Part shown: piece after piece, positions 49,426 through 61,718 of the stretch
How positions within the stretch are numbered: position 1 is the first letter of the stretch
How the letters are laid out: the number at the start of each line of letters is the position of its first letter
The notes under the pieces: model-generated
What the model was told of the DNA's origin: nothing
The model's input: only the letters and a program-made list of their open reading frames with translations
Database searches by the model: none
Assembly: GCA_031279415.1 (NCBI GenBank)
Contig: JAITIP010000040.1
Location: forward strand, 1 to 62,014
Length of the DNA stretch: 62,014 nucleotides
Direction: 5' to 3'
DNA from: Candidatus Endomicrobium procryptotermitis
GTDB taxonomy: Bacteria > Elusimicrobiota > Endomicrobiia > Endomicrobiales > Endomicrobiaceae
Made by a program: the position numbers and the translations under genes

Positions 49426-50526
49426 TCAACTTCTTGGTTTTCCGTCTTCCGCCTTCGTTTTTGAAAAAATAATGCAGGTTAGAATTAATGCCGTTATACC
49501 GCCAGTGAGTTTGCCGCAGAGTACGGCCAATATCATATCTTTATCGACGCTTGCGGTAAAACCTAAATGGTCTCCCAAAGCAAAGCCTGCACTTACTGCA
49601 AATGCCGAATTTAAAATTTTGCCTCTGTCGTCCATATCGTTAAATAAAGCCGCCATTGCCACAGTGTTTGCCAAAGCTGCAAAAAAACCAGCGGCAGATT
49701 TATCGTTTATCTTTAATTTGCTGCCCGCTTTCTCAAATGTTTTAGCAAATATTTTAGTCAGTATGTGGACAAGACTTAATGCTCCCGCAAGAATTATGAC
49801 TATTGCTCCTATCACCGCAAAAGCATCTTTAATAGGATACATTCCTTTAATAAGTGCAAATCCCGTAGTTGCTTCTATTGCCGCTATAACTAAAGATAGG
49901 CTTAGAAAAGCGCCGACGATTTTGCCTAAAAACAGGAATATTTTAACTGTTGCGTTTTGCGCAAAAATTAAACCTGCAGCGACCGCTGTAGAAAATAGCA
50001 TGGCGGGCACAAGATTTTTAAGCATAAACAAAATACCGAACCCTGCAACTGTTCCGCCGGCTATACAGCCGAAGGGGATAGTGATTATTCCAGCTAAAAT
50101 TCCTTTTGCGACCAGCGGTCTGCTGTTTTTGTCTGCGGAACTTAACAAAAAAGGTATTAAAAAAGATATTGTTATGCCTAGCATTGATCCGAGAATTAAC
50201 CCTGAAAAGTTTGCCGCCTGATTATCTTTTGTAAGGGAAAAGGCCAATGTGTACGCTCCGGTATCACTGCCGAGAACTGTTCCTGCAAACATGGACGGGT
50301 CTGAACCAAAAAATAAATATAACGGATTGATAAGCGGATATAATATTTTTCCGAGCGCAGGCGCAATGCATAAAGCGCCTGCCATATACATTGCAAGCGT
50401 GCCCATCGCGGAAAAAGCCTGCCTGTATTTAATACCGAGCCCGATTTTATTTCCGAAAGCGTAATCTATACCGGCAGCGGCCATAAACGCCGTCATGATA
50501 TAGAGAATAATATCGTTTATATTCAT
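49426..50526 (-). CDS. eutH: EutH-family ethanolamine permease
   Basis: This 366-residue membrane protein has about ten helices and EutH hallmarks: MTAFMAAAGIDYAFGNKIGLG at the start, FAGTVLGSDTGAYTLA, and near the end LFNDMDDRGKILNSAF with ALGDHLGFTA. EutH moves ethanolamine into the cell. No ethanolamine ammonia-lyase or eut shell gene is present. It begins 15 nt after the ABC ATPase of the DUF1989/carboxylase operon and runs in the same direction, so it is the last gene of that operon by position. It may bring in ethanolamine as another nitrogen source or another small amine; which is not decided. An inverted repeat at 49333-49360 lies downstream but lacks a T-run. Confidence 0.9.
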   Translation of the reverse strand: MNINDIILYIMTAFMAAAGIDYAFGNKIGLGIKYRQAFSAMGTLAMYMAGALCIAPALGKILYPLINPLYLFFGSDPSMFAGTVLGSDTGAYTLAFSLTKDNQAANFSGLILGSMLGITISFLIPFLLSSADKNSRPLVAKGILAGIITIPFGCIAGGTVAGFGILFMLKNLVPAMLFSTAVAAGLIFAQNATVKIFLFLGKIVGAFLSLSLVIAAIEATTGFALIKGMYPIKDAFAVIGAIVIILAGALSLVHILTKIFAKTFEKAGSKLKINDKSAAGFFAALANTVAMAALFNDMDDRGKILNSAFAVSAGFALGDHLGFTASVDKDMILAVLCGKLTGGITALILTCIIFSKTKAEDGKPRS

Positions 50527-50541
50527 TTATTGTCCAAGCCG

Positions 50542-51345
50542 CTAATTGTCGTCGTGTGAAATTAAAGCACTTATACTTTTGCGCAATTCTATGAATTTGG
50601 CGTCGTCTTTAATATCCAAATTCCGTTCATAAGGAAGATAAACCGCAATGTCGGCTTTTATTCTTCCCGGCTGCACATCCATAACATAAATTCTCTGGGA
50701 AAGAAAAACCGCTTCTTCTATATCGTGAGTAACAAAAATAACCGTTGTGCGTTCCTCTTGCCATATTCGCCGCATTAAAAGCTGCATGGAAGCTTTGGTC
50801 TGCGGGTCTAGAGCGCCGAAAGGTTCATCCATAAGCAAAACTTCGGGACTGTTTGCCAGAGCTCTTGCTATGGCGACACGCTGTTTCATTCCTCCAGACA
50901 ATTCTTTAGGATAAGAATTTCTGAAATTTAAAAGACCAACTCTGGTAAGATATTTGTCTGTTATTTTTTTTCTTTCTTCTTTTGGCATTTTTTTTATTTT
51001 AAGCCCGAATTCAATATTTTTTTCTACTGTCAGCCAAGGAAACAGAGTATAACCTTGAAAAACCATTCCTCTGTCCGCTCCGGGGCCTTCAAGAATCTTA
51101 TCATTTAAAACTATTCTGCCGCTTGTTTTGTCGTTGAGTCCGCCTATAATTCTTAGAAGCGTAGATTTGCCGCAGCCGGAAGGTCCTACAATGCTGACAA
51201 ACTCGTTTGTCAGAATTTCGATATTAATATCCTCTAAAGCCGTAACAGAATGTTTTTTACTTTCATATTTTTTTTCAATATGTCGTGCATAAATTTTTGA
51301 AGTCGCCACGCGCCCTTTTAAAATATTTGCGTTTATGCCGGTCAT
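50542..51345 (-). CDS. NitT/TauT-type ABC transporter ATPase
   Basis: This 267-residue ABC ATPase has Walker A GPSGCGKST, the Q-loop GMVFQGYTLFPWL, signature LSGGMKQRVAIARAL, Walker B VLLMDEPFGALDP and the His switch FVTHD. The sequence is of the nitrate/sulfonate/taurine class. Its ATG overlaps the permease stop by 4 nt (ATGA). With the permease and binding protein it forms an importer that in related operons accompanies urea/guanidine carboxylase, so urea, guanidine or a related compound is the likely cargo. Confidence 0.93.
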   Translation of the reverse strand: MTGINANILKGRVATSKIYARHIEKKYESKKHSVTALEDINIEILTNEFVSIVGPSGCGKSTLLRIIGGLNDKTSGRIVLNDKILEGPGADRGMVFQGYTLFPWLTVEKNIEFGLKIKKMPKEERKKITDKYLTRVGLLNFRNSYPKELSGGMKQRVAIARALANSPEVLLMDEPFGALDPQTKASMQLLMRRIWQEERTTVIFVTHDIEEAVFLSQRIYVMDVQPGRIKADIAVYLPYERNLDIKDDAKFIELRKSISALISHDDN

Positions 51346-52136
51346 TTATCCCCCCATTCGACCCAGCGGAAAGATTTTTTGGTTATAAAAGCAAAAGCTC
51401 TGTCGGTGACAATGCCCAAAATTCCTATTATTAGAATTCCCGAAAAGATGGCTTCTGTTTTTAGAACTCTCTGTGCTTTAAGTATCGCGTAGCCGAGACC
51501 TGAATTTGCCGCGACAAGTTCCGCTACCACAAGATAGGTCCACGCCCACCCTACCATCATACGCATGGTTTCAAAAAGTTTCGGCATAATTGCAGGAACG
51601 ATGACTTTCATAATTACCTGCATTCTTCCCGCTCCCAAAGTGTATGCTGCATTTATTAAATCTTCAGGGATAGAACGCACGTTATCTGCTGTCATTGGGA
51701 TAATCTGAAAAAGCGTCCCAAGAAATATCACGGCAACTTTTGCTTCTTCTCCTATCCCGACCCAAACCATTACAAGCGGAATAAAAGCCGGCACTGGCAT
51801 ATAGCGTACAAATTCGCAGACTGACTGTATAAAACTTTCAAATATTTTAAATGTTCCGCATAAAATACCGAGAGGCACGCCGAATATAACAGCTATAAAA
51901 AATCCTGTCATGATTCTAAAAACGCTTATGCTCATATTGTTCCACAGCGTACCGTCGGCGATGCTTTTGAATATATAGTCTGCTACCGCTTGCGGTGTAG
52001 GAAGTATTGTAGCTTTCACCATTCCGCTCATGCTGAAAAATGCCCATGTGCCGAACAATATTACAAATGCAGACAGAGCCGCGATAAGGTAAGCTCTTTT
52101 ATTTATATCTTTTCTTATTTTAAACAGACCCTGCAT
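51342..52136 (-). CDS. NitT/TauT-type ABC transporter permease
   Basis: This is a six-helix inner-membrane permease of about 264 residues with the EAA-type loop near AAYTLGAGRMQVIMKVIVPAI. It belongs to the nitrate/sulfonate/taurine class. I start it at the ATG 52136 because AAGGCGG lies just upstream; the ATG six codons earlier has no Shine-Dalgarno. It overlaps the ATPase gene by 4 nt and follows the binding-protein gene by 33 nt. Confidence 0.92.
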   Translation of the reverse strand: MQGLFKIRKDINKRAYLIAALSAFVILFGTWAFFSMSGMVKATILPTPQAVADYIFKSIADGTLWNNMSISVFRIMTGFFIAVIFGVPLGILCGTFKIFESFIQSVCEFVRYMPVPAFIPLVMVWVGIGEEAKVAVIFLGTLFQIIPMTADNVRSIPEDLINAAYTLGAGRMQVIMKVIVPAIMPKLFETMRMMVGWAWTYLVVAELVAANSGLGYAILKAQRVLKTEAIFSGILIIGILGIVTDRAFAFITKKSFRWVEWGDK

Positions 52137-52169
52137 AAAACCGCCTTTTTTCATTTTGCATACATTTAA

Positions 52170-53246
52170 TTATTTTAAACTTGTATTTGGTCCTTCTGTT
52201 ACAGGTCTGGTTTTTGCCAAAGCTTCGATAAATGACGGGTCAAACATGGCTGTGAAATAATCTTTGTCTTCTGGAACATCATCTATAAGATTTACGCTTT
52301 TTAGAAAGAGCGCATTTTGGTATGCGTTATAAGGGCCATATAGATAATCGTCTTTTTTATCGGTCATTTCCGAAATCATATCTTTTAGCCCATAGATACG
52401 GCCTCCTGCCATAATTTCTTTCATTGTCTGCGTGTCAACGTCTGCGGGAACCCTCATATACTCGATACTCTTATCAGGATTCTGTTTATAGAAATCGATA
52501 GCGTCAAGAAAAGCGTTTATCACTCCGGCAACGATCTGTGGATTTTTTTTGATAAGTTCGTCAGTGGCAACTGTGACGTCTTGTATAAGTCCCGGGTTTT
52601 GATTCGAAGCATACAGAAGTTTTATTCCTTTGTCAGACAATGCTATGCTTAAAGCTGGTTCCCACAATCCTGCAGCGTCAACCGCTCCAGATATGATTGC
52701 AGGAGCTGAATCACCTACACTTATGTTTACGAGATTGATGTCGGCTTCTTTCAAACCGACAGTTTCAAGAGCTTTAAGCAAAAAGAAATGTTCTATAGTA
52801 CCGTATTCTGTGGCTACTTTCTTTCCTTTTAAATCAATAAGCGAATTGATTCCCCTGTCGCTTCTTGCGACAATGCCGTCTGCACCGTTAGAAAAATCGT
52901 TTATAGCAACGATTTTAAACTTTGTACCTTTAATATACGGTGCTGGCGCATCCGGAAGCGCTATGCAAAGCATGTCAAGGTTGCCGCTGTTAAAGGCCTG
53001 AAGCGAATCAGAATAAACAGGAAACCATACGAGTTCAACGTTAACGCCATTTTTCTTAAAATAGTCTTCGCCCTGTGCGATGTAATACACAAACCAGCCT
53101 GGAAAAGCGCTGATTCCGAGCTTAATCTTTTTTGAAGAAATGCCGTTTGATGTTTCCTGCGGGCTTTTTGAACAACCTGTCAAAAATCCCGACGTAACAA
53201 CAGACATTAAAAACAATGCCACAAAAGCATAAAATAGCTTTTTCAT
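52170..53246 (-). CDS. ABC transporter substrate-binding lipoprotein (NMT1/SsuA-like)
   Basis: This 358-residue lipoprotein (LTGC, Cys at about residue 25) has an NMT1/SsuA-type periplasmic binding fold. It shows KIKLGISAFPGWFVYYIAQG, then SDSLQAFNSGNLDMLCIALP, DGIVARSDRGINSLIDLKGK and VDAAGLWEPALS. AGGAGGAAGAG precedes the ATG. The WEP motif and the operon context match the binding proteins encoded with urea carboxylase and DUF1989 genes. The ligand is inferred to be urea, guanidine or a derivative, not shown. Confidence 0.92.
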   Translation of the reverse strand: MKKLFYAFVALFLMSVVTSGFLTGCSKSPQETSNGISSKKIKLGISAFPGWFVYYIAQGEDYFKKNGVNVELVWFPVYSDSLQAFNSGNLDMLCIALPDAPAPYIKGTKFKIVAINDFSNGADGIVARSDRGINSLIDLKGKKVATEYGTIEHFFLLKALETVGLKEADINLVNISVGDSAPAIISGAVDAAGLWEPALSIALSDKGIKLLYASNQNPGLIQDVTVATDELIKKNPQIVAGVINAFLDAIDFYKQNPDKSIEYMRVPADVDTQTMKEIMAGGRIYGLKDMISEMTDKKDDYLYGPYNAYQNALFLKSVNLIDDVPEDKDYFTAMFDPSFIEALAKTRPVTEGPNTSLK

Positions 53247-53298: not shown

Positions 53299-53658
53299 TT
53301 ATAAAATCGCACTATCTTTTCTTTCTCCGGTGCGTATACGGTAAGCGTCTTCACAGGGAATCACAAAAATTTTCCCATCGCCATGAGTGTCGCTTTTGTT
53401 GGCTTTTATTATGACATCGATGACCGTCTGAACGTCACAGTCTCTCACGTACATGTCTATCAGCGTTTTCGCGTGCATTTGTGGCGCATTTATCTCTTTA
53501 TGTTCTTCGCCTATATCGTTTATGACTACCGACGTCGGCGCACCTCTCCCCTTTCCAAAAACAGTATAATTGCTCAACGCGAAAAACCCTTTTTGCGAAA
53601 GAAGATTTTTCGTTTCATAACTTTTACATGGCCTTATTATTGCTATGATTTCTTTCAT
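53299..53658 (-). CDS. NifI2-like PII signalling protein
   Basis: This 119-residue PII protein starts MKEIIAIIRPCKSYETKNLL. It has a T-loop region without the uridylylated Tyr of GlnB, and the C-terminal HGDGKIFVIPCEDAYRIRTG B/C-loop motif. It is longer in the T-loop than NifI1 and resembles NifI2, the second PII of nifHI1I2DK operons. NifI1 and NifI2 form a complex that responds to 2-oxoglutarate and ATP/ADP and blocks nitrogenase. Here the pair lies between allophanate hydrolase and the ABC importer, so it may gate the transporter or the carboxylase according to nitrogen status. GGACGG precedes the ATG. Confidence 0.85.
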   Translation of the reverse strand: MKEIIAIIRPCKSYETKNLLSQKGFFALSNYTVFGKGRGAPTSVVINDIGEEHKEINAPQMHAKTLIDMYVRDCDVQTVIDVIIKANKSDTHGDGKIFVIPCEDAYRIRTGERKDSAIL

Positions 53659-53683
53659 AAGTTTCCGTCCTGTTTTTACGGCT

Positions 53684-54010
53684 TTAAAGAGTATTGCTTG
53701 CCGTACTTATCGTTATTACGGACTCGACCGGAGTAATAAAAATTTTCCCATCGCCGAAAGAACCTTTTTTTCCAGTTTTTGCTGTATCGATTATGATTTT
53801 TTGTATTTTTGCCACGTTTTCGTCTTCAACGACAATCATAATAAGTTCTTTTGGGATTTCGTCGTAATAAATATCGCCGACTTTTATTCCACGTTGTTTG
53901 CCTCGTCCGAGAATGCTCACTCTTGTTGCCGCAGAAAAACCGGCTTTGCTCAAGTTTGCCAGCACGTCGGAAGCTTTTTCCGGCCGCACTATCAGTTTTA
54001 CCATTTTCAT
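53684..54010 (-). CDS. NifI1-like PII signalling protein
   Basis: This 108-residue PII protein starts MKMVKLIVRPEKASDVLANL. It has the NifI1-type T-loop GRGKQRGIKVGDIYYDEIPK and the nucleotide-binding GSFGDGKIFITPVESV. The C-terminus ISTASNTL departs from the usual RTGE ending of the family: the RTG residues that help bind nucleotide phosphate are replaced, which may change its ligand response. It overlaps the allophanate hydrolase stop by 4 nt and has a good GGAGG. The NifI2-like gene follows after 25 nt. Confidence 0.87.
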   Translation of the reverse strand: MKMVKLIVRPEKASDVLANLSKAGFSAATRVSILGRGKQRGIKVGDIYYDEIPKELIMIVVEDENVAKIQKIIIDTAKTGKKGSFGDGKIFITPVESVITISTASNTL

Positions 54011-55761
54011 TTTGTTTTCCTCCGTTTTGTTTTTATAAATTCTTTCCAGCCGCCATAAGAAGTTATGTCCTTTGCACCTTTAAGCGCATACGGTTCGCAT
54101 AAAAAACCTTCTGCGGTTTCTCCGTTTATAAGATTTATTTTACCGAAAACCATTGGTGATAAAGTCTTGCACACAAGTTCTGCAAAACTTTCCTGCGGAA
54201 TGCTCCATAATTGCGTTATAATGGATTTTCCGCCGCGTTTGACTTTTACGATTCCCGGCTTTTGCGGCATGGTGTTTAAAGCAAACATTCTGTACTCTTC
54301 GGCAGTTTTTGTTTTTTTTATAAATGCACCGCCAATATCCGTTAAGATGCTATTTAATGGCATACCTTTCATATGAACCCCGTGAACAGCTACGGTAACT
54401 TCTCGTTTCTTGAGATTTTCGATTAATTCTGCCATTGCAATAAGATAGCTTTCTTTATCGGCAAGAGAAAAAACCGTTATACCGAACGGTATGCAAATGC
54501 CATTTTCTTCTGCGCAGGTTTTGCCGAAAGGTATGGCTATTGCGGCAAGGTCAAGCAAATTACAGTGACTTGTGTATAATCCCATTTTATTATTTGTCTC
54601 GATGGGGTTTTCTCTTACTTGTTTTCTTGTCCATGTTCCACCTGTCGTAGGAAGAATAAGTACGCCTTCCTTAAGAATTTTCTTTACTCTACATTTGTAC
54701 GCTTTTAAATTGTGAATTACGTTAAAAAGTTCCGAAGCGCTAAATTGTGGGGATTTTCCGGATTCGAGTATTTTTTTCGTAACCAAAAAAATTTTCTTTT
54801 CATGTTTTTCTATAAACTTTCCCAAAGCCGACCATCTTTCAGTTATATATGCACCGCCGTATAAAACTTCTGCGGCCTTTCTGAACAAATTTGTATCTAT
54901 ATAATGTATGGGAATGCCTAAACTCTTTACGGATTTTTCAAAATCTTTCCAACAGGCAGCGTAATCATTTGCAAAATCTCCAAAAAATTCAAGATTGTTT
55001 TTTGGCAGACATAAATATTTCGGTTTTTGTGAAAAAATACGATGTGTTTCTCTTGACCATTTGTCCATACTTTCGTATTTGCGTGCAGCATTGTCCACAG
55101 AAACGCAGTCTTCGAAGTTATTTGCAAAGACGCTTACGCAGTCAAGAGTTTCGCAGGCCGGAACAACTCCTTTAACCGACCATGCTCCAAACGACGGCTT
55201 AAAACCGGTTATGCCGTTTAACATGGCAGGCACCCGACCCGACCCGGCAGTATCTGTGCCGAGAGCAAATGCGGAATGTCCGCGCGCAACGCATACGGCA
55301 GAACCAGAGCTTGATCCACCACTTATATATTCGCCGCATAATGCGTTATGTACCTCGCCGTAAGGCGAACGTGTTCCGACCAATCCTGTGGCAAACTGGT
55401 CCATGTTCGTTTTTCCTACGGGTATTGCACCTTGAGAAATAAGATTTTCAACAACTGCGGCGCTTTCTTTTGGAATATATGAATATGCGGGACATGCTGC
55501 TGTTGTCGAAACGCCGGCAAGATCTATATTGTCTTTTATCGCAAAAGGTATTCCCCACAAGGGATATTTGTCGAAGTTAGATTTTTTAAGACGTTTGAGA
55601 TAAGGTCGTATAAATTTCATATCAGGTTTGCATATCCATATATTCATTTTTTTATCTGCATTGGCGCGTTTAATAATGCTTTCTATTACCCGACTCGGAG
55701 TAAGATGCCCATATGCGTATTGTTGTCTGAGCCATTTTATAGAAATTTTTTGAGGTAACAT
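54007..55761 (-). CDS. atzF: Allophanate hydrolase
   Basis: This protein of about 584 residues has an amidase-signature domain (residues about 10-440) with the Ser-cisSer-Lys triad: GKTNMDQFATG for Lys and ISGGSSSGSAV for the two Ser. The C-terminal domain (about 450-584) is seen in AtzF/DUR1,2 allophanate hydrolases (VAVHGVHMKGMPLN, FCEPYALKGAKDIT). It splits allophanate to ammonia and CO2, the last step of urea or guanidine carboxylation pathways. I choose the ATG at 55761, 7 nt after AGGA; the ATG two codons earlier is too close. It is directly downstream of the carboxylase gene. Confidence 0.95.
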   Translation of the reverse strand: MLPQKISIKWLRQQYAYGHLTPSRVIESIIKRANADKKMNIWICKPDMKFIRPYLKRLKKSNFDKYPLWGIPFAIKDNIDLAGVSTTAACPAYSYIPKESAAVVENLISQGAIPVGKTNMDQFATGLVGTRSPYGEVHNALCGEYISGGSSSGSAVCVARGHSAFALGTDTAGSGRVPAMLNGITGFKPSFGAWSVKGVVPACETLDCVSVFANNFEDCVSVDNAARKYESMDKWSRETHRIFSQKPKYLCLPKNNLEFFGDFANDYAACWKDFEKSVKSLGIPIHYIDTNLFRKAAEVLYGGAYITERWSALGKFIEKHEKKIFLVTKKILESGKSPQFSASELFNVIHNLKAYKCRVKKILKEGVLILPTTGGTWTRKQVRENPIETNNKMGLYTSHCNLLDLAAIAIPFGKTCAEENGICIPFGITVFSLADKESYLIAMAELIENLKKREVTVAVHGVHMKGMPLNSILTDIGGAFIKKTKTAEEYRMFALNTMPQKPGIVKVKRGGKSIITQLWSIPQESFAELVCKTLSPMVFGKINLINGETAEGFLCEPYALKGAKDITSYGGWKEFIKTKRRKTK

Positions 55762-55792
55762 TTTCATTTCCTTTTATAATTTAGACGGCAAA

Positions 55793-58700
55793 CTATTTTA
55801 TTGTCGCCAAAAGCTGTCCGGCGTTAACCTGCTGGCCGGTAGAGACGTATATTTTTTCTATAGTGCCGGATTTGGTCGCAATTTGAGAAAGTTCCATTTT
55901 CATGCTTTCTTCAAGAATAACGGTTTCACCTTTTTTAACGCTTTGCCCTTCTTCAACCGCTATTTTCCATATCACTCCGCTCATTGCTGCGCGCACGGCC
56001 GACATGCCTTTTGGAACGGTTTCTTCACCGGTTCCAATGGCACAGTCATTTTCGGAAATAAATTTATCGACTCCATGCAGTTTCCATCGGAGCTTTTCAT
56101 CTTCAAACGCGGACTGCTGCTTATCTTTAAATATTTTTATGCTGTCTTTAATTGAATCGAGCCATTTTAAATATTTGTTTAAGTTAAACGACGTTTTTTC
56201 GATTTCAAGTTCAAATCTGCCTCTTAAAAAATCTTCTCTGATATCAAGAAGTTTTTCAGCAGACACAGGATAAAAACGTATCTGGTCAAAAAAATCAAGT
56301 GCCCAAGGTTTTTTATTGGAAAACGTTTTTGTATTTCTTTCCAAAGCGTTCCAGACTTGTATGGTTCTGCCAAAAAGCTGGTAACCGCCGGGACCTTCCA
56401 TTCCGTATATTCCCAAATACGCTCCACCTATACCCACTGCGTTTTCGGGTGTCCACGTTCTTGCTGGATTGTATTTTGTCGTAACAAGCCTATGCCGAGG
56501 ATCAACCGAGACCGCAACCGGAGCTCCCAAATACACATCGCCTAAACCCAAAACCAGATAAGTCGCGTCAAATATGATTTTTTTTACGTCTTCAACCGTT
56601 TCCAAACCGTTGATCCTTCTTATAAACTCTATATTGCTTGGACACCATGGAGCATCTGTTCTGACATTTTTATGGTATCTCTCTACGGCGAGTTCGGCAG
56701 CTGGGTCATTCCATGAAAGCGGCATTCTTACTATTCTTGAAGGAAGTTCTGCATTCCCGCTGTTTTTAAGCGAATGTTCTAACTCTATGACTTTTTTCAA
56801 TGCGTCTTCTAAAGATATTTTTGTTGTGTCAAAATGAATTTGCAGGCTTCTTACTCCGGGCGTAACTTCTATTACCGGCAAGTTTGATTCCGAAACGGCT
56901 TTCATAAGATTGTGAACTTTAAAACGCAGAACAATATCCAAAACCATTTCGCCGTATTCGACAAGGAGGTATCTGTCTCCTGCGCAGCGCACAGTAAGCT
57001 TAGGTGACGAATTTTCTCTTATAAGTATCGGATAGTTAGAATAGATTTCTTCGGATAAACTGTAAACAGAAGAAATATCGGTATCTTTTATGTCATATTT
57101 TTCAATATCGGAAAAAAATTTTTCATGGTTGTCTCTTAATTCCTGCGCCTGTTTTAGTGTCAGCAGTTTAAACACTATTTCGTCTCCCGGGTGAAGTTGA
57201 CCCAATTTCCACAGTTCTGCCGCTGCAACAGTTACAGGACAGACAAAACCGCCCAAACTAGGTCCATCAGGACCAAGTAAAATCGGCATGTCTCCTGTCA
57301 AATCCAAAGTTCCTACAGCATAGGCCGTGTCGTGAATATTTGAAGGGTGGAGTCCCGCTTCCCCGCCGTCAGAACGCGCCCATTGCGGCACGGGACCTAT
57401 CAAACGCACACCGGTGCGCGAACTGTTAAAGTGTACTTTCCATTTTGACTTTTTTAAAGTATCCAAAAATGAACTTTTTAAAAATTCACCGTCGCAATGT
57501 GGCCCGCATATAACGCCTATTTCCCATTTGTTGTCGAACTTTTTCGGTTTTTTTTTGATTTTAATATTTGTTCCTGTTTCATCGGTGTTTATCATAAGAA
57601 CGTCACCGCTTCTTAAAGCCCTTCCAGAATATCCGCCGAACTTTCCGAGTGTAAAAGTCGAACGGCTGTTTAAAACTTTAGCTATATCAAAACCGCCTCT
57701 TACAAGCAGGTAAGCACGCATTCCTTTCTGCGCTTGTGCAAATTCGAGAATTTGTCCCATCTGAGCGTTTACCGCTGTATAGGTTTCGACGGTTTTTCCA
57801 TCAAGTTTTGCGTTCATGTCTGCGCCAGTAATGCAGAAAACAGAGCTGCTTCTGAACTTGTATATCCCGCCTCTTAAAGTGAGTTCAAGTCCACAGGCAT
57901 CGTCGGGATTTCCCAAAATTTTATTTCCTAGCCTGAAAGAAAACATATCCATAGGCCCGCATGGCGGAACGCCTACGTTCCAATATCCCGTTATGCCAGG
58001 ATAATCCTGAACGGTGGTTTGTATTCCTCCATCTATAACTTCAAGAGCGTTTTCCTTAGGAAAAAAGTTTTTAAGCACGGATGTCGAAAGTAAAGCGTTT
58101 TCATAATAATCCTGAAATGTAAGCGAACGCAAGTAATTTATATTCGTAACTACGCCGTATATTTTTATCTGAGAAAGAGCTTCCCTGAGTTTTTTAAGAG
58201 CGTCGTTTCTGTCTAATCCTTTTACTATGACTTTTGCAAGCATAGGGTCGTAAAGCGGCGAAACTGTAAGATTGTCGCACACCCATGTTTCAATACGTGT
58301 GTTTTCGGGGATAATTACTTTCGTGATCTTTCCACAGGAAGGATGGAAATCTGCTAACGGATCTTCGGCATAAATTCTTGCCTCTATGCTTGTTCCTTCG
58401 GGATATTTATCTTTGATTTCATTAAGTTCTCCCGCTGCTTCTTTTATCATCAATTCGACAATATCTGTTGCGGTAACTTCTTCGGTTATGCCGTGTTCAA
58501 CCTGAAGTCTTGTGTTTACTTCCAGAAAATAAAAATTTTTGTCATAGGTATCGTAAAGAAATTCTACCGTTCCGGCATTTACATATCCCACTTGTCCAGC
58601 AAGTTTTTTTGCGGCGGCATAAAGATTGTTTCTGGTTTCAATGCTTATTTTAGGAGCCGGAGTTTCTTCGATTACTTTTTGATTTCTTCTTTGAACGGAA

Positions 58701-59383
58701 CAATCGCGTTCTCCTAAAGTTACTATCTTTCCGCTTTTTAAGCCGAAAATCTGTACTTCTATATGTCTTGCGTTTTTTATATATTTTTCCAGAAAGACGC
58801 CGCCATTTTTAAAGTTGGAAGAGGCAAGTCGCATAACTTCATCGAAATTTTTGCAAAGCTGTGTTTCGTCGCGGCAAATTTTCATACCTATACCACCTCC
58901 GCCGGCTGTGCTTTTAAGCATGACGGGATAGCCTATTTTTAAAGCCGCTTTTTTCGCTTCCTCAATATTGTCTACCAACCCGCTTCCTTCCAAAAGCGGA
59001 ACTCCCACTTTTTTTGCTATTTCTCTTGCCGAATGTTTAAGCCCGAACAATCTCATCTGCTCGGGAGCGGGTCCTATAAAAACAATTCCGTTTCTTTCAC
59101 ATTCTTCAGCAAAGTCCGCGTTTTCACTCAAAAAGCCGTATCCCGGATGAATCGCTTCGCATTGTGTCTCTTTCGCTGTTTTTAATATAAGATTTGCGTT
59201 CAGATAAGTTTCTTTTAAGCCGCCTTCGCCTATGCATACAGTTTCGTCAGCGTTCTGTACGTGCAGGCTGTCTATGTCGGCCTTTGTATACAACGACACA
59301 GATTTAATGCCCATTTTTTTAAGCGTTCTTTCTATTCTAACAGCGATTATTCCTCTGTTTGCAATAAGAATTTTTTTAAACAT
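55793..59383 (-). CDS. Urea/guanidine carboxylase, biotin-dependent
   Basis: This single-chain carboxylase has about 1196 residues. It comprises a biotin carboxylase domain (1-445: KILIANRGIIAVR, GGGGIGMK, HIEVQIFG, LQVEH), a KipA-like carboxyltransferase half (from about 455, VIDGGIQTTVQDYPG), a KipI-like half (from about 760, RYLLVEYGEMVLDI) and a biotin domain with EESMKMELS, biotinyl Lys near 1162. Its closest named family is urea carboxylase. Enzymes of this family encoded with two DUF1989 proteins have been shown to prefer guanidine, giving carboxyguanidine. With DUF1989 genes upstream and allophanate hydrolase downstream I favour guanidine, but urea is not excluded. The ATG at 59383 sits 6 nt after GGAG; longer starts are poorer. 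The biotin motif has Ser where most have Ala (EAMKM). Confidence 0.92.
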   Translation of the reverse strand: MFKKILIANRGIIAVRIERTLKKMGIKSVSLYTKADIDSLHVQNADETVCIGEGGLKETYLNANLILKTAKETQCEAIHPGYGFLSENADFAEECERNGIVFIGPAPEQMRLFGLKHSAREIAKKVGVPLLEGSGLVDNIEEAKKAALKIGYPVMLKSTAGGGGIGMKICRDETQLCKNFDEVMRLASSNFKNGGVFLEKYIKNARHIEVQIFGLKSGKIVTLGERDCSVQRRNQKVIEETPAPKISIETRNNLYAAAKKLAGQVGYVNAGTVEFLYDTYDKNFYFLEVNTRLQVEHGITEEVTATDIVELMIKEAAGELNEIKDKYPEGTSIEARIYAEDPLADFHPSCGKITKVIIPENTRIETWVCDNLTVSPLYDPMLAKVIVKGLDRNDALKKLREALSQIKIYGVVTNINYLRSLTFQDYYENALLSTSVLKNFFPKENALEVIDGGIQTTVQDYPGITGYWNVGVPPCGPMDMFSFRLGNKILGNPDDACGLELTLRGGIYKFRSSSVFCITGADMNAKLDGKTVETYTAVNAQMGQILEFAQAQKGMRAYLLVRGGFDIAKVLNSRSTFTLGKFGGYSGRALRSGDVLMINTDETGTNIKIKKKPKKFDNKWEIGVICGPHCDGEFLKSSFLDTLKKSKWKVHFNSSRTGVRLIGPVPQWARSDGGEAGLHPSNIHDTAYAVGTLDLTGDMPILLGPDGPSLGGFVCPVTVAAAELWKLGQLHPGDEIVFKLLTLKQAQELRDNHEKFFSDIEKYDIKDTDISSVYSLSEEIYSNYPILIRENSSPKLTVRCAGDRYLLVEYGEMVLDIVLRFKVHNLMKAVSESNLPVIEVTPGVRSLQIHFDTTKISLEDALKKVIELEHSLKNSGNAELPSRIVRMPLSWNDPAAELAVERYHKNVRTDAPWCPSNIEFIRRINGLETVEDVKKIIFDATYLVLGLGDVYLGAPVAVSVDPRHRLVTTKYNPARTWTPENAVGIGGAYLGIYGMEGPGGYQLFGRTIQVWNALERNTKTFSNKKPWALDFFDQIRFYPVSAEKLLDIREDFLRGRFELEIEKTSFNLNKYLKWLDSIKDSIKIFKDKQQSAFEDEKLRWKLHGVDKFISENDCAIGTGEETVPKGMSAVRAAMSGVIWKIAVEEGQSVKKGETVILEESMKMELSQIATKSGTIEKIYVSTGQQVNAGQLLATIK

Positions 59384-59433
59384 CATTATCTCCAAATTTG
59401 TCATTGCTGTACTTTTTGATTACAGCAGATTTT

Positions 59434-60075
59434 TCAGTCCCACAGATGAACTTTTATTTCCGTAGGATTAAATCCGGCGCATGGATTATTAATCTGAGGA
59501 CAGTTGCTTATAAGAAGCATAATGTCCATAAGCGCTTCCATTTCTATGTAACAGCCTGCGTAAGAAGGGCTTTTGCCAAACCAAAGTTTTCCGTCAGAAG
59601 TCACGGGGACATTTGTCAATGCGTTTATGTTTGCGCCTATGTCGCGTTTAGAATATCTTTCATCATCCGATATTTGAAGCATGAAAGTGTCGCGGCAGTT
59701 GTGCATATAATCTTTTTCATGCGCATATCTTACGGTATTGCTTTGCGAAGAACATGCGCCGCCTAAAGTGTCATGCATCCTGCAAATGTCGGCGGTAATT
59801 TTAAGCATTGCTTTTCCGGCTTCGGAATATAAAATGGTTCCGGATGTAAGATAAATATTTTTTTGAGCGGTAACAGTTTTTGCCGCGCTGTAATGGTCAT
59901 ATGTATTGGCTGCGTCAAGAAAAAAGACATCGACACCCTGTTCTCCTTTTACGTCGGTTATGCGAAAAGTCTGTCCTTTATTTATCCGTTTAAACAATCC
60001 GCTGCCGGCTTCTATGATGATGTTAAATACGGCATCTTCTTCTATTTTTGTACTTTCTTTTTTTATAGACGGCAT
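59434..60075 (-). CDS. DUF1989 protein, carboxyguanidine deiminase-like subunit (copy B)
   Basis: This 213-residue DUF1989 protein is of the shorter urea-carboxylase-associated class. It has GVDVFFLDAANTYDHYSAAKT, CRMHDTLGGACSSQSNTVRY, KDYMHNCRDTFM, NINALTNVPVT and the terminal NCPQINNPCAGFNPT. Conserved Cys and His (HDTLGGAC, HNC, NCPQ) are candidate zinc and active-site residues. In guanidine-degrading bacteria two different DUF1989 proteins form the heteromeric carboxyguanidine deiminase (CgdAB) that yields allophanate. It is closely related to the gene at 60971-61627, including 73 identical consecutive bases. Compared with that copy it reads RMHDT and NINALTN for GRHDT and NINFFMN. GGAGG precedes the ATG. 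Confidence 0.9.
   Translation of the reverse strand: MPSIKKESTKIEEDAVFNIIIEAGSGLFKRINKGQTFRITDVKGEQGVDVFFLDAANTYDHYSAAKTVTAQKNIYLTSGTILYSEAGKAMLKITADICRMHDTLGGACSSQSNTVRYAHEKDYMHNCRDTFMLQISDDERYSKRDIGANINALTNVPVTSDGKLWFGKSPSYAGCYIEMEALMDIMLLISNCPQINNPCAGFNPTEIKVHLWD
59691..59763. repeat. 73-bp exact repeat shared by two DUF1989 genes (copy 1)
   Basis: This stretch, starting CGCGGCAGTTGTGCATATAA on the plus strand, is identical to 61240-61312. It encodes the segment around SNTVRYAHEKDYMHNCRDTF in both paralogues. Confidence 0.95.
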
Positions 60076-60091
60076 AAAAATCCTCCATTTT

Positions 60092-60811
60092 TTATTCTTC
60101 CTTCAACGCATAATAATCCCAAGTGTTTTCAAAAGCTCTTTTATTTTCAGGATATTTATTTACGCAAATATCGTCAGCTCCTACAGTAACGGATTTGTAA
60201 ACGTCAAGTTTTACCTGAACAGAAGGATATTTTGAACTTGTATCTAACGGGTTGGGCGTATTCGATAAGATAAGCAAAATCGACATCTCCGTTCTTATCA
60301 TTATGTAGTCATCAGCTTTCGAATGATTTGCAGCATATATCATATTTCCTTTATCGTCGCAGTAAACTTTTGAAAAAAGGTTTACATTAGGCATAATATC
60401 TCTTATTCCCAATCCGTTTCTTACAAGTTCTATAGCAAAATTGTCGTAGCCATTTCTGTAATAGTCATTGCCGTTTTGCTGGTATGTGGTTTTTCCGTAT
60501 TTTTCTTCAGTAAGATTCTTGTCACTGCAGCCTGATATAGTATCAATCCAGCTTGTAGAATCGGCGATTATGCTTGCCATAGCGCGTCCATTATCACTCA
60601 TCATTATGTCGCCTTTGGTAAGAAAGGCAATGTGCTGGGCTTTTAAAGTGTCAGGCATATTGTACCTTTCGCTTAAATCATCAGCATTATACATTAGTAA
60701 AGATACGTTAGCTCCGTCCTCAAGCGTCGTAAATCGTAAAATTTTTCCTTTGCTTATAACGGCAGACCATTTTTCTCCGCTTTTAAAAGTTTTAGAAAAT
60801 AATGATTTCAC
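60092..60811 (-). CDS. DUF1989 protein, carboxyguanidine deiminase-like subunit (long class)
   Basis: This DUF1989 protein of about 239 residues belongs to the longer class: KSGEKWSAVISKGKILRFTT, GANVSLLMYNADDLSERYNM, DTLKAQHIAFLTKGDIMMSD, then NFAIELVRNGLGIRDIMPNV and a terminal NKYPENKRAFENT. It should pair with the shorter class to form one enzyme. A GTG start at 60811 is preferred because GGAGG lies 8 nt upstream; the ATG at 60826 overlaps that Shine-Dalgarno. It is followed by the second short-class gene after 16 nt. A 159-nt gap separates it from the first short-class gene. Confidence 0.9.
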   Translation of the reverse strand: MKSLFSKTFKSGEKWSAVISKGKILRFTTLEDGANVSLLMYNADDLSERYNMPDTLKAQHIAFLTKGDIMMSDNGRAMASIIADSTSWIDTISGCSDKNLTEEKYGKTTYQQNGNDYYRNGYDNFAIELVRNGLGIRDIMPNVNLFSKVYCDDKGNMIYAANHSKADDYIMIRTEMSILLILSNTPNPLDTSSKYPSVQVKLDVYKSVTVGADDICVNKYPENKRAFENTWDYYALKEE

Positions 60812-60970
60812 GGGAAATACCTCCATGAATATGAAATTAAAGTTTTAATGTGATAAAAAATAAACAGTTATAACAAAAAGAGGATAAGGAAAGGTTGTAG
60901 TTCATCTATGCGAGCGGCTTTATACCTGCACATTTTGCTGATACTGCTCAAACTCTCGAGAAAATTTCTT

Positions 60971-61627
60971 CTACACATCTGTTTCCTCCCATATGGCAAT
61001 TTTTACGGGAGTAGGATTATACGCGTTGCATGGATTGTTAAGCTGTGGACAGCTGCTTAAAAGAAGCATTACATCGGTCACGGCTTTCATCTCTACGTAT
61101 GCACCTGCATACGAAACTCCGTCCTCAAAACAAAGTTGTCCCTGTGCAGTTACCGGAACGTTCATAAAAAAATTTATATTTGCGGCCAAATCTCGTTTTG
61201 AATATTGTTTTACGTTCGATATACAATGCATGAAAGTATCGCGGCAGTTGTGCATATAATCTTTTTCATGCGCATATCTTACGGTATTGCTTTGCGAAGA
61301 ACATGCGCCGCCCAGAGTGTCGTGCCTGCCGCATGTGTCGGCTGTTATTTTCAAAAGCTGTTTTCCGGATTCTGCAAGTAAAATCGAACCTGTGGTAAGA
61401 TAAATATTTTTTTGTGCGGCAATGGTTTTAACGGCACTGTAATGGTCGCTTGGATCTGCGACATCATAAAAAAGTGTATCCGCCGCCTGATTTCCCTGCA
61501 GGTCAGTAATGCGGACAGTCTGTCCTTTTTTTATTAATCCGAACCACCCATCGCCAGATGTAATAACTTTATTAAATATCGACTCTTCTTCTTTTTTTTC
61601 GCTTTCCATTTTTATAAAAATTGACAT
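60971..61627 (-). CDS. DUF1989 protein, carboxyguanidine deiminase-like subunit (copy A)
   Basis: This 218-residue DUF1989 protein is the first gene of the operon. It has GNQAADTLFYDVADPSDHYS, CGRHDTLGGACSSQSNTVRY, NINFFMNVPVT and SCPQLNNPCNAYNPTPVKI. It keeps the family residues more faithfully (GRHDTLGGAC, NINFFMNVP) than its paralogue at 59434-60075. I start it at the ATG 61627, 8 nt after AAGGAAG; the ATG at 61633 is too close to the Shine-Dalgarno, and the frame's upstream part runs through a hairpin. The presence of two short-class copies and one long-class copy is unusual. Confidence 0.9.
   Translation of the reverse strand: MSIFIKMESEKKEEESIFNKVITSGDGWFGLIKKGQTVRITDLQGNQAADTLFYDVADPSDHYSAVKTIAAQKNIYLTTGSILLAESGKQLLKITADTCGRHDTLGGACSSQSNTVRYAHEKDYMHNCRDTFMHCISNVKQYSKRDLAANINFFMNVPVTAQGQLCFEDGVSYAGAYVEMKAVTDVMLLLSSCPQLNNPCNAYNPTPVKIAIWEETDV
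61240..61312. repeat. 73-bp exact repeat shared by two DUF1989 genes (copy 2)
   Basis: Identical to 59691-59763, about 1.5 kb away in the same orientation. Flanking sequence is similar but not identical, so it lies within a longer duplicated gene. Confidence 0.95.
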
Positions 61628-61645
61628 TTTCATCACTTCCTTTTC

Positions 61646-61691
61646 AAAAAATAAAGACGCTGAAGAAAAAACAAATTTCTTCAGCGTCTTT
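61646..61691 (-). terminator. Terminator-like hairpin in the leader of the DUF1989 operon
   Basis: A perfect 16-bp stem (61653-61668 with 61676-61691) and a 7-nt loop are followed on the minus strand by ATTTTTT. It lies about 20 nt upstream of the first DUF1989 start codon and reads in the operon's direction. It could end an upstream transcript or act as an attenuator. I see no competing anti-terminator stem and no ykkC-type guanidine aptamer before it. Confidence 0.8.
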
Positions 61692-61718
61692 GCTGTCATC
61701 TTTTATTAAGTTTTTTCT

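Follow-up and report, generated by a model that had tools for sequence, protein, structure and literature searches.

A NifI1/NifI2-type PII protein pair beside an ABC importer in the guanidine operon of an Endomicrobium genome

The stretch of DNA analysed here (the window, 62,014 nucleotides) has its nearest relatives among Endomicrobium MAGs (Endomicrobiaceae, Elusimicrobiota). At the end of the window lies one co-directional run of minus-strand genes: three DUF1989 genes, carboxylase, allophanate hydrolase, PII-1, PII-2, the importer genes and a EutH-like gene. Its features, in the direction of reading, are:

61653..61691, minus strand: terminator-like hairpin in the operon leader, candidate attenuator (16-pair stem and T tract; leader z-score -4.4)
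60971..61699, minus strand: third DUF1989 gene, UAAP2-like (homology to UAAP2-annotated genes; likely true start near 61627-61633)
60092..60826, minus strand: DUF1989, UAAP1, probable carboxyguanidine deiminase subunit (TIGR03425 278.6 bits, above cut-off)
59434..60075, minus strand: DUF1989, UAAP2-like, probable carboxyguanidine deiminase subunit (TIGR03424 251.7 bits, below its 284.7 cut-off)
55793..59404, minus strand: guanidine carboxylase, annotated as urea carboxylase (TIGR02712 1711 bits; Asp701, Asp956)
54007..55767, minus strand: allophanate hydrolase (TIGR02713 582.8 bits, above cut-off)
53684..54010, minus strand: PII-1, NifI1-type PII protein, 108 aa (Pfam P-II 80.6 bits; best PDB match 9p1x_H; NifI1-type clade 100/98)
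53299..53658, minus strand: PII-2, NifI2-type PII protein, 119 aa (Pfam P-II 64.1 bits; family profile best on 9p1x_G; NifI2-type clade 100/97)
52170..53246, minus strand: ABC importer substrate-binding protein, SsuA/NMT1 type (TIGR01728 172.9 bits; TIGR03427 109.6 bits)
51342..52154, minus strand: ABC importer permease (PF00528; ntrB TIGR01183 103 bits)
50542..51345, minus strand: ABC importer ATPase, NrtD/TauB type (closest solved chains CmpD and NrtD; pair-linked ATPase clade 100/99)
51292..51321, minus strand: ATPase N-terminal segment LKGRVATSKI, residues 9-18, candidate docking segment (VA.SKI-type motif)
49426..50526, minus strand: EutH-like membrane protein, last gene of the run (PF04346 382.7 bits; same position in L046/L077)

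Both PII frames are intact (53299-54010), and PII-1 precedes PII-2, which is the NifI1-NifI2 order. The start of PII-1 overlaps the end of the allophanate hydrolase gene by four bases, and 25 bases separate PII-1 from PII-2. The pair is flanked by allophanate hydrolase and the ABC importer and not by nifH and nifD, as the original prediction had it when it placed a NifI1/NifI2-like pair outside any nitrogenase operon.

The DUF1989 genes, which we take to encode carboxyguanidine deiminase subunits, share the operon with allophanate hydrolase, the combination that marks the guanidine carboxylase pathway. Asp701 of the carboxylase stands where the Kluyveromyces urea carboxylase has Asn1330, and Asp956 is the second signature residue. 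Asp at the equivalents of K. lactis positions 1330 and 1584 separates guanidine from urea carboxylases (PMC11410670); these equivalents are TIGR02712 positions 701 and 956. In the pair-linked carboxylases of nine other loci Asp is present at 701 in all nine and at 956 in all eight that cover the position. Because the Asp701/Asp956 carboxylase stands together with the DUF1989 genes, the operon is, by its gene content, a guanidine operon, and this context points to guanidine as the probable cargo of the importer. Like the described operons of this pathway, it combines a carboxylase with these residues and an ABC importer with allophanate hydrolase and the DUF1989 genes for the deiminase, whereas the NifI-type pair, the third DUF1989 gene and the EutH-like gene are additions of the window. 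The EutH-like gene, a relative of ethanolamine permease, is also kept in the guanidine run of a sister genome.

A guanidine riboswitch is common, not universal, upstream of such operons. None was found at gathering scores in the window or in 13 related loci, and a relaxed threshold returned only unrelated small RNAs in the operon leader. The leader does contain the strong terminator-like hairpin, which lies between a promoter-like TTGACA, directly behind it, and the probable start codon, and which matched no Rfam family. The same hairpin occupies the same place in a sister operon (L078, 2094-2129, plus strand), where a T-A pair is replaced by C-G in a compensatory change, and it can be regarded as a candidate attenuator.

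The scores of PII-1 and PII-2 are far above the Pfam P-II cut-off (25 bits), and these matches, together with those to PDB structures, rule out chance or spurious frames. As a single sequence PII-1 matches chain H of 9p1x best (91.8 bits; runner-up 61), and so does the profile of the importer-linked PII-1 family (117 vs 85 bits). The single PII-2 sequence is closer to GlnK1 (64 vs 49 bits), but the profile of its family has 9p1x chain G as its best match (115 vs 96 bits), and this profile together with the tree described below settles PII-2 as NifI2-type. Because 9p1x also contains a nitrogenase alpha chain, its chains H and G are read as NifI1 and NifI2 of a nitrogenase complex. AlphaFold models (mean pLDDT 78.9 and 83.6) give the PII fold for both proteins, with uncertain T-loops, and match PII structures at a Foldseek E of about 1e-10, which adds little beyond the fold.

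PII-1 retains R9, T29, Q39, G41, the equivalent of K58 (K54) and GDGK. All of these but T29 take part in 2-oxoglutarate binding elsewhere among PII proteins. PII-2 is without the Q39 residue, as is usual for NifI2, and retains GDGK and RIRTGE. It does not have the long T-loop of NifI2: importer-linked PII-2 proteins measure 112-120 aa, nif-linked ones about 124-132 aa. It could be argued that the two proteins are degenerate remnants without function, given that PII-1 lacks RIRTGE, that the T-loop of PII-2 is about 9 residues shorter than in NifI2 of sister genomes and that its B-loop is altered (SDTHGDGK). However, the frames are intact in the copies examined, pairing and order are strict, PII-1 identity within the family is 79-82% and RIRTGE is normally absent from NifI1; loss of function is hardly credible. 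The ending of PII-1 had also been regarded as deviating from a usual RTGE, which was mistaken: the canonical nif-linked NifI1 proteins collected for comparison end in ...TISSG.. or TISSAKKEL, and ...TISTASNTL in the window is therefore not odd.

In a tree of 88 PII proteins PII-1 falls inside the NifI1-type clade (100/98) and PII-2 inside the NifI2-type clade (100/97), with GlnB/GlnK outside both. The pair is not beside amtB either. The tree and the profile matches thus bear out the predicted NifI1/NifI2-type identity, and the placement among ordinary GlnK proteins that would have spoken against it was not obtained. Each clade contains a nitrogenase-linked and an importer-linked branch. In the NifI1-type clade their supports are 99/91 and 96/86 (13 of the 14 importer-linked rows, L091 being basal), and in the NifI2-type clade 98/94 and 97/90 (all 13 rows); in an extended tree 18 importer-linked PII-2 proteins fall on one side (97/94). 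The two clades split alike, and therefore the pair diverged as a unit. On this phylogenetic evidence the importer-linked pair is a sister branch of the nitrogenase-linked NifI1/NifI2 and not nitrogenase NifI itself.

Is the pair then a fragment of a nif cluster that was recently relocated? Two sister genomes (G005 and G018) carry the guanidine-operon pair in addition to a canonical nifH-nifI1-nifI2-nifD-nifK cluster. Their guanidine-operon PII-1 is 78-82% identical to that of the window, and their nif-cluster NifI1 55%. With both pairs kept in two sister genomes and a deep split in the tree, recent relocation is excluded, and this second way in which the original prediction could have failed falls away.

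The genome of the window (2.0 Mb) has no canonical nif set. Its five PII genes are one fused to Amt, one beside Amt, one GlnB-like, PII-1 and PII-2; the fusion (L001, 1465-3138, minus strand) is an ammonium transporter with a C-terminal PII domain in one 557-aa frame. NifH- and NifDK-like genes are present on a separate contig, C43, which has no PII gene. The pair might be a displaced NifI that controls this nitrogenase-like enzyme, of the methylthio-alkane reductase type, in trans, and the lack of a PII gene alongside would fit. Yet the same branch occurs in genomes without a nitrogenase-like protein, the nif cluster of the sister genomes has a canonical NifI pair of its own, and the enzyme encoded on C43 resembles methylthio-alkane reductase much more than nitrogenase, all of which makes control in trans very unlikely. 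The NifD-like protein tested from C43 reaches 424.7 bits against 9fmg and about 128 bits against MoFe nitrogenase, and by this measure resembles methylthio-alkane reductase. The C43 cluster (L011, L012) contains two NifD-like genes, NifB-like, O-acetylhomoserine sulfhydrylase-like and cysteine synthase-like genes and NMT1-type importers, the neighbours being named by reading their sequences.

A scan of one genome per species gave a best 80 loci, 13 of which are importer-linked, while nearly all the others are nif or nif-like. The 13 belong to two Endomicrobium, Treponema ruminis, Candidatus Treponema equi, Ruminiclostridium hungatei, Enterococcus florum, E. pallens, E. raffinosus and five Lachnospiraceae or other Clostridia. 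Searches of further genomes (341 Elusimicrobiota, 397 Lachnospiraceae, 244 of the Treponema order, 391 of the clostridial class and 105 Enterococcaceae) added importer-linked L215-L219 and the more distant L221. The importer-linked loci number 19, the window counted, and the branch is found in at least three phyla; it is uncommon, with three of the 341 Elusimicrobiota genomes carrying it. In all 18 loci whose contig continues, the importer ATPase gene follows downstream of the pair on the same strand, and any genes in between belong to the importer. Many of the genome records are MAGs. By its place in this series the pair is one member of an importer-linked branch and not a local oddity.

The pair occurs independently of nitrogenase and of the carboxylase. 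No PF00148 protein, and with it no nitrogenase-like gene, is found in eight of the 11 other pair-bearing genomes tested. The guanidine pathway is present in 13 of the 19 loci and absent from six (L081, L082, L088, L091, L093 and L218), and in the genomes of these six no CT_C_D protein is found anywhere, hence no urea or guanidine carboxylase. Four of them (those behind L081, L082, L088 and L091) lack both PF00148 and CT_C_D proteins. The neighbours in pathway-free loci are agmatinase-family and nitrilase-like genes or histidine breakdown genes, as named by reading the sequences, and it is a guess that other nitrogen-rich substrates are imported there. On the other hand, guanidine operons with the same kind of importer but without the pair exist in Paenibacillus, Azospirillum and Cupriavidus, so the pair is not essential to them.

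These distributions bear on the possible targets. PII proteins bind BCCP of acetyl-CoA carboxylase in some other bacteria, and the pair could in the same way bind the guanidine carboxylase, which is a biotin enzyme, and stop the use of ATP when nitrogen is plentiful. Most of the importer-linked loci, those with the guanidine pathway, would allow this. The divergence of the pair correlates with that of the carboxylase (r 0.89, 9 loci) and with that of the ATPase (r 0.79, 18 loci), although such correlations are expected for any operon and cannot name importer or carboxylase as the target. Because six pair-bearing genomes with an importer have no such carboxylase, the importer is favoured; in several loci, moreover, the carboxylase sits away from the pair, beyond the importer. 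Control of the carboxylase in place of uptake is in our view unlikely, though the pair might serve both. The original prediction had offered recruitment for the control of guanidine/urea uptake or of the carboxylase: the former is now the likely role, and the latter has lost ground.

Among solved structures the window ATPase has its closest relatives in CmpD and NrtD, the NrtD chain being that of 8wm7, the NrtBCD-PII entry. A VA.SKI-type motif is present at the N-terminus of 17 of 18 pair-linked ATPases and of none of 15 unlinked homologues. The pair-linked ATPases form one clade (100/99), and because of this the motif could stem from ancestry alone; it was considered as a functional mark and demoted to a candidate, so that LKGRVATSKI is a candidate docking segment for the pair. 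Gene linkage does not prove contact between pair and importer. PII partners are of many kinds and linkage by itself names none of them, which leaves room for a pair acting through a transcription factor, a kinase or the EutH-like membrane protein, its adjacency to the importer being operon bookkeeping. No regulator was seen to be common to the 19 loci, but the importer ATPase is, and EutH is found in the Endomicrobiaceae copies only; action through another partner is accordingly rather improbable.

Our preferred reading, to which we give a probability of about 70%, is that the importer-linked NifI1/NifI2 branch forms a heteromer which senses 2-oxoglutarate and ATP and inhibits the ABC importer when nitrogen is plentiful. 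PII-1 and PII-2 would assemble into a PII trimer of mixed composition that responds to 2-oxoglutarate and to ATP/ADP. The 9p1x entry holds 12 NifI1-type and 6 NifI2-type chains, which suggests a 2:1 mixed trimer, and by analogy we infer a similar trimer for the importer-linked pair. With nitrogen plentiful and 2-oxoglutarate low, the trimer would bind to the importer from the cytoplasm, with the ATPase as its most likely contact, and guanidine uptake would stop; with nitrogen short, 2-oxoglutarate and MgATP would release it, and the resumed uptake would supply guanidine to carboxylase, deiminase and allophanate hydrolase. The scheme has precedents. NifI1,2 block the NifH site on NifDK, and 2-oxoglutarate with MgATP reverses the block (PMC9765008). 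Synechocystis PII binds NrtC, NrtD and UrtE (PMC6603209), and the PII-NrtBCD complex has been solved (PDB 8wm7).

The likeness to known systems is partial in each case. The NifI1/NifI2 of methanogens, clostridia and deltaproteobacteria, which switch nitrogenase off, are of the same two subfamilies in the same gene order, and each family profile finds the corresponding subunit of 9p1x; the window pair differs in lying outside a nif operon, in its linkage to an importer, in its sister-branch position, in the shorter PII-2 and in its occurrence without nitrogenase. With cyanobacterial PII-NrtBCD and PII-UrtE it would have in common that PII controls an ABC importer which takes up a nitrogen source, but there one GlnB-type homotrimer serves many targets, whereas the window encodes a dedicated NifI-type pair alongside the importer. 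As in GlnK-AmtB, a PII gene shares an operon with a nitrogen transporter gene, but the PII clade and the transporter type are different, and the Amt-linked GlnK genes of this genome are elsewhere.

NifI1/NifI2 have been described as nitrogenase regulators, and the open-access literature searched gave no earlier account of NifI-type proteins next to importers, which is weak evidence of novelty. Probably these sensors serve a second purpose, that of braking the uptake of nitrogen-rich food molecules. If this branch does brake ABC importers, NifI is too narrow a name for the family, the presence of a NifI-like gene alone does not mark nitrogen fixation, and guanidine uptake is under a post-translational switch in gut bacteria such as Treponema ruminis and Enterococcus raffinosus. 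The importer-linked pair is also a fresh test bed for target choice by mixed PII trimers. More speculatively, and with doubt prevailing, NifI1 and NifI2 may together be a portable brake of general use that responds to nitrogen status. On this view the two-part brake branched early, one line serving nitrogenase, a second the ABC importers of nitrogen-rich compounds and a third, in some Elusimicrobiota, nitrate assimilation; nitrogenase switch-off may then be derived from an older control of importers, and the docking site of the importer branch may be a dedicated segment at the N-terminus of the ATPase.

NifI-type genes were also seen in further settings. In an Enterococcaceae genome (G1422) a distant NifI-type pair (L221, 9786-10442, plus strand) lies beside a different ABC importer and PucR-like and aminotransferase-like genes; because its ATPase is without the N-terminal motif, it may represent a separate recruitment. 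In other Elusimicrobiota (L223, 8746-11062, minus strand; L224, 8992-12642, minus strand) NifI-type proteins occur in a third context: a cluster for nitrate/nitrite assimilation, whose genes resemble those of nitrite reductase, nitrate transporter and molybdopterin reductase, is flanked by a NifI1-like and a NifI2-like gene.
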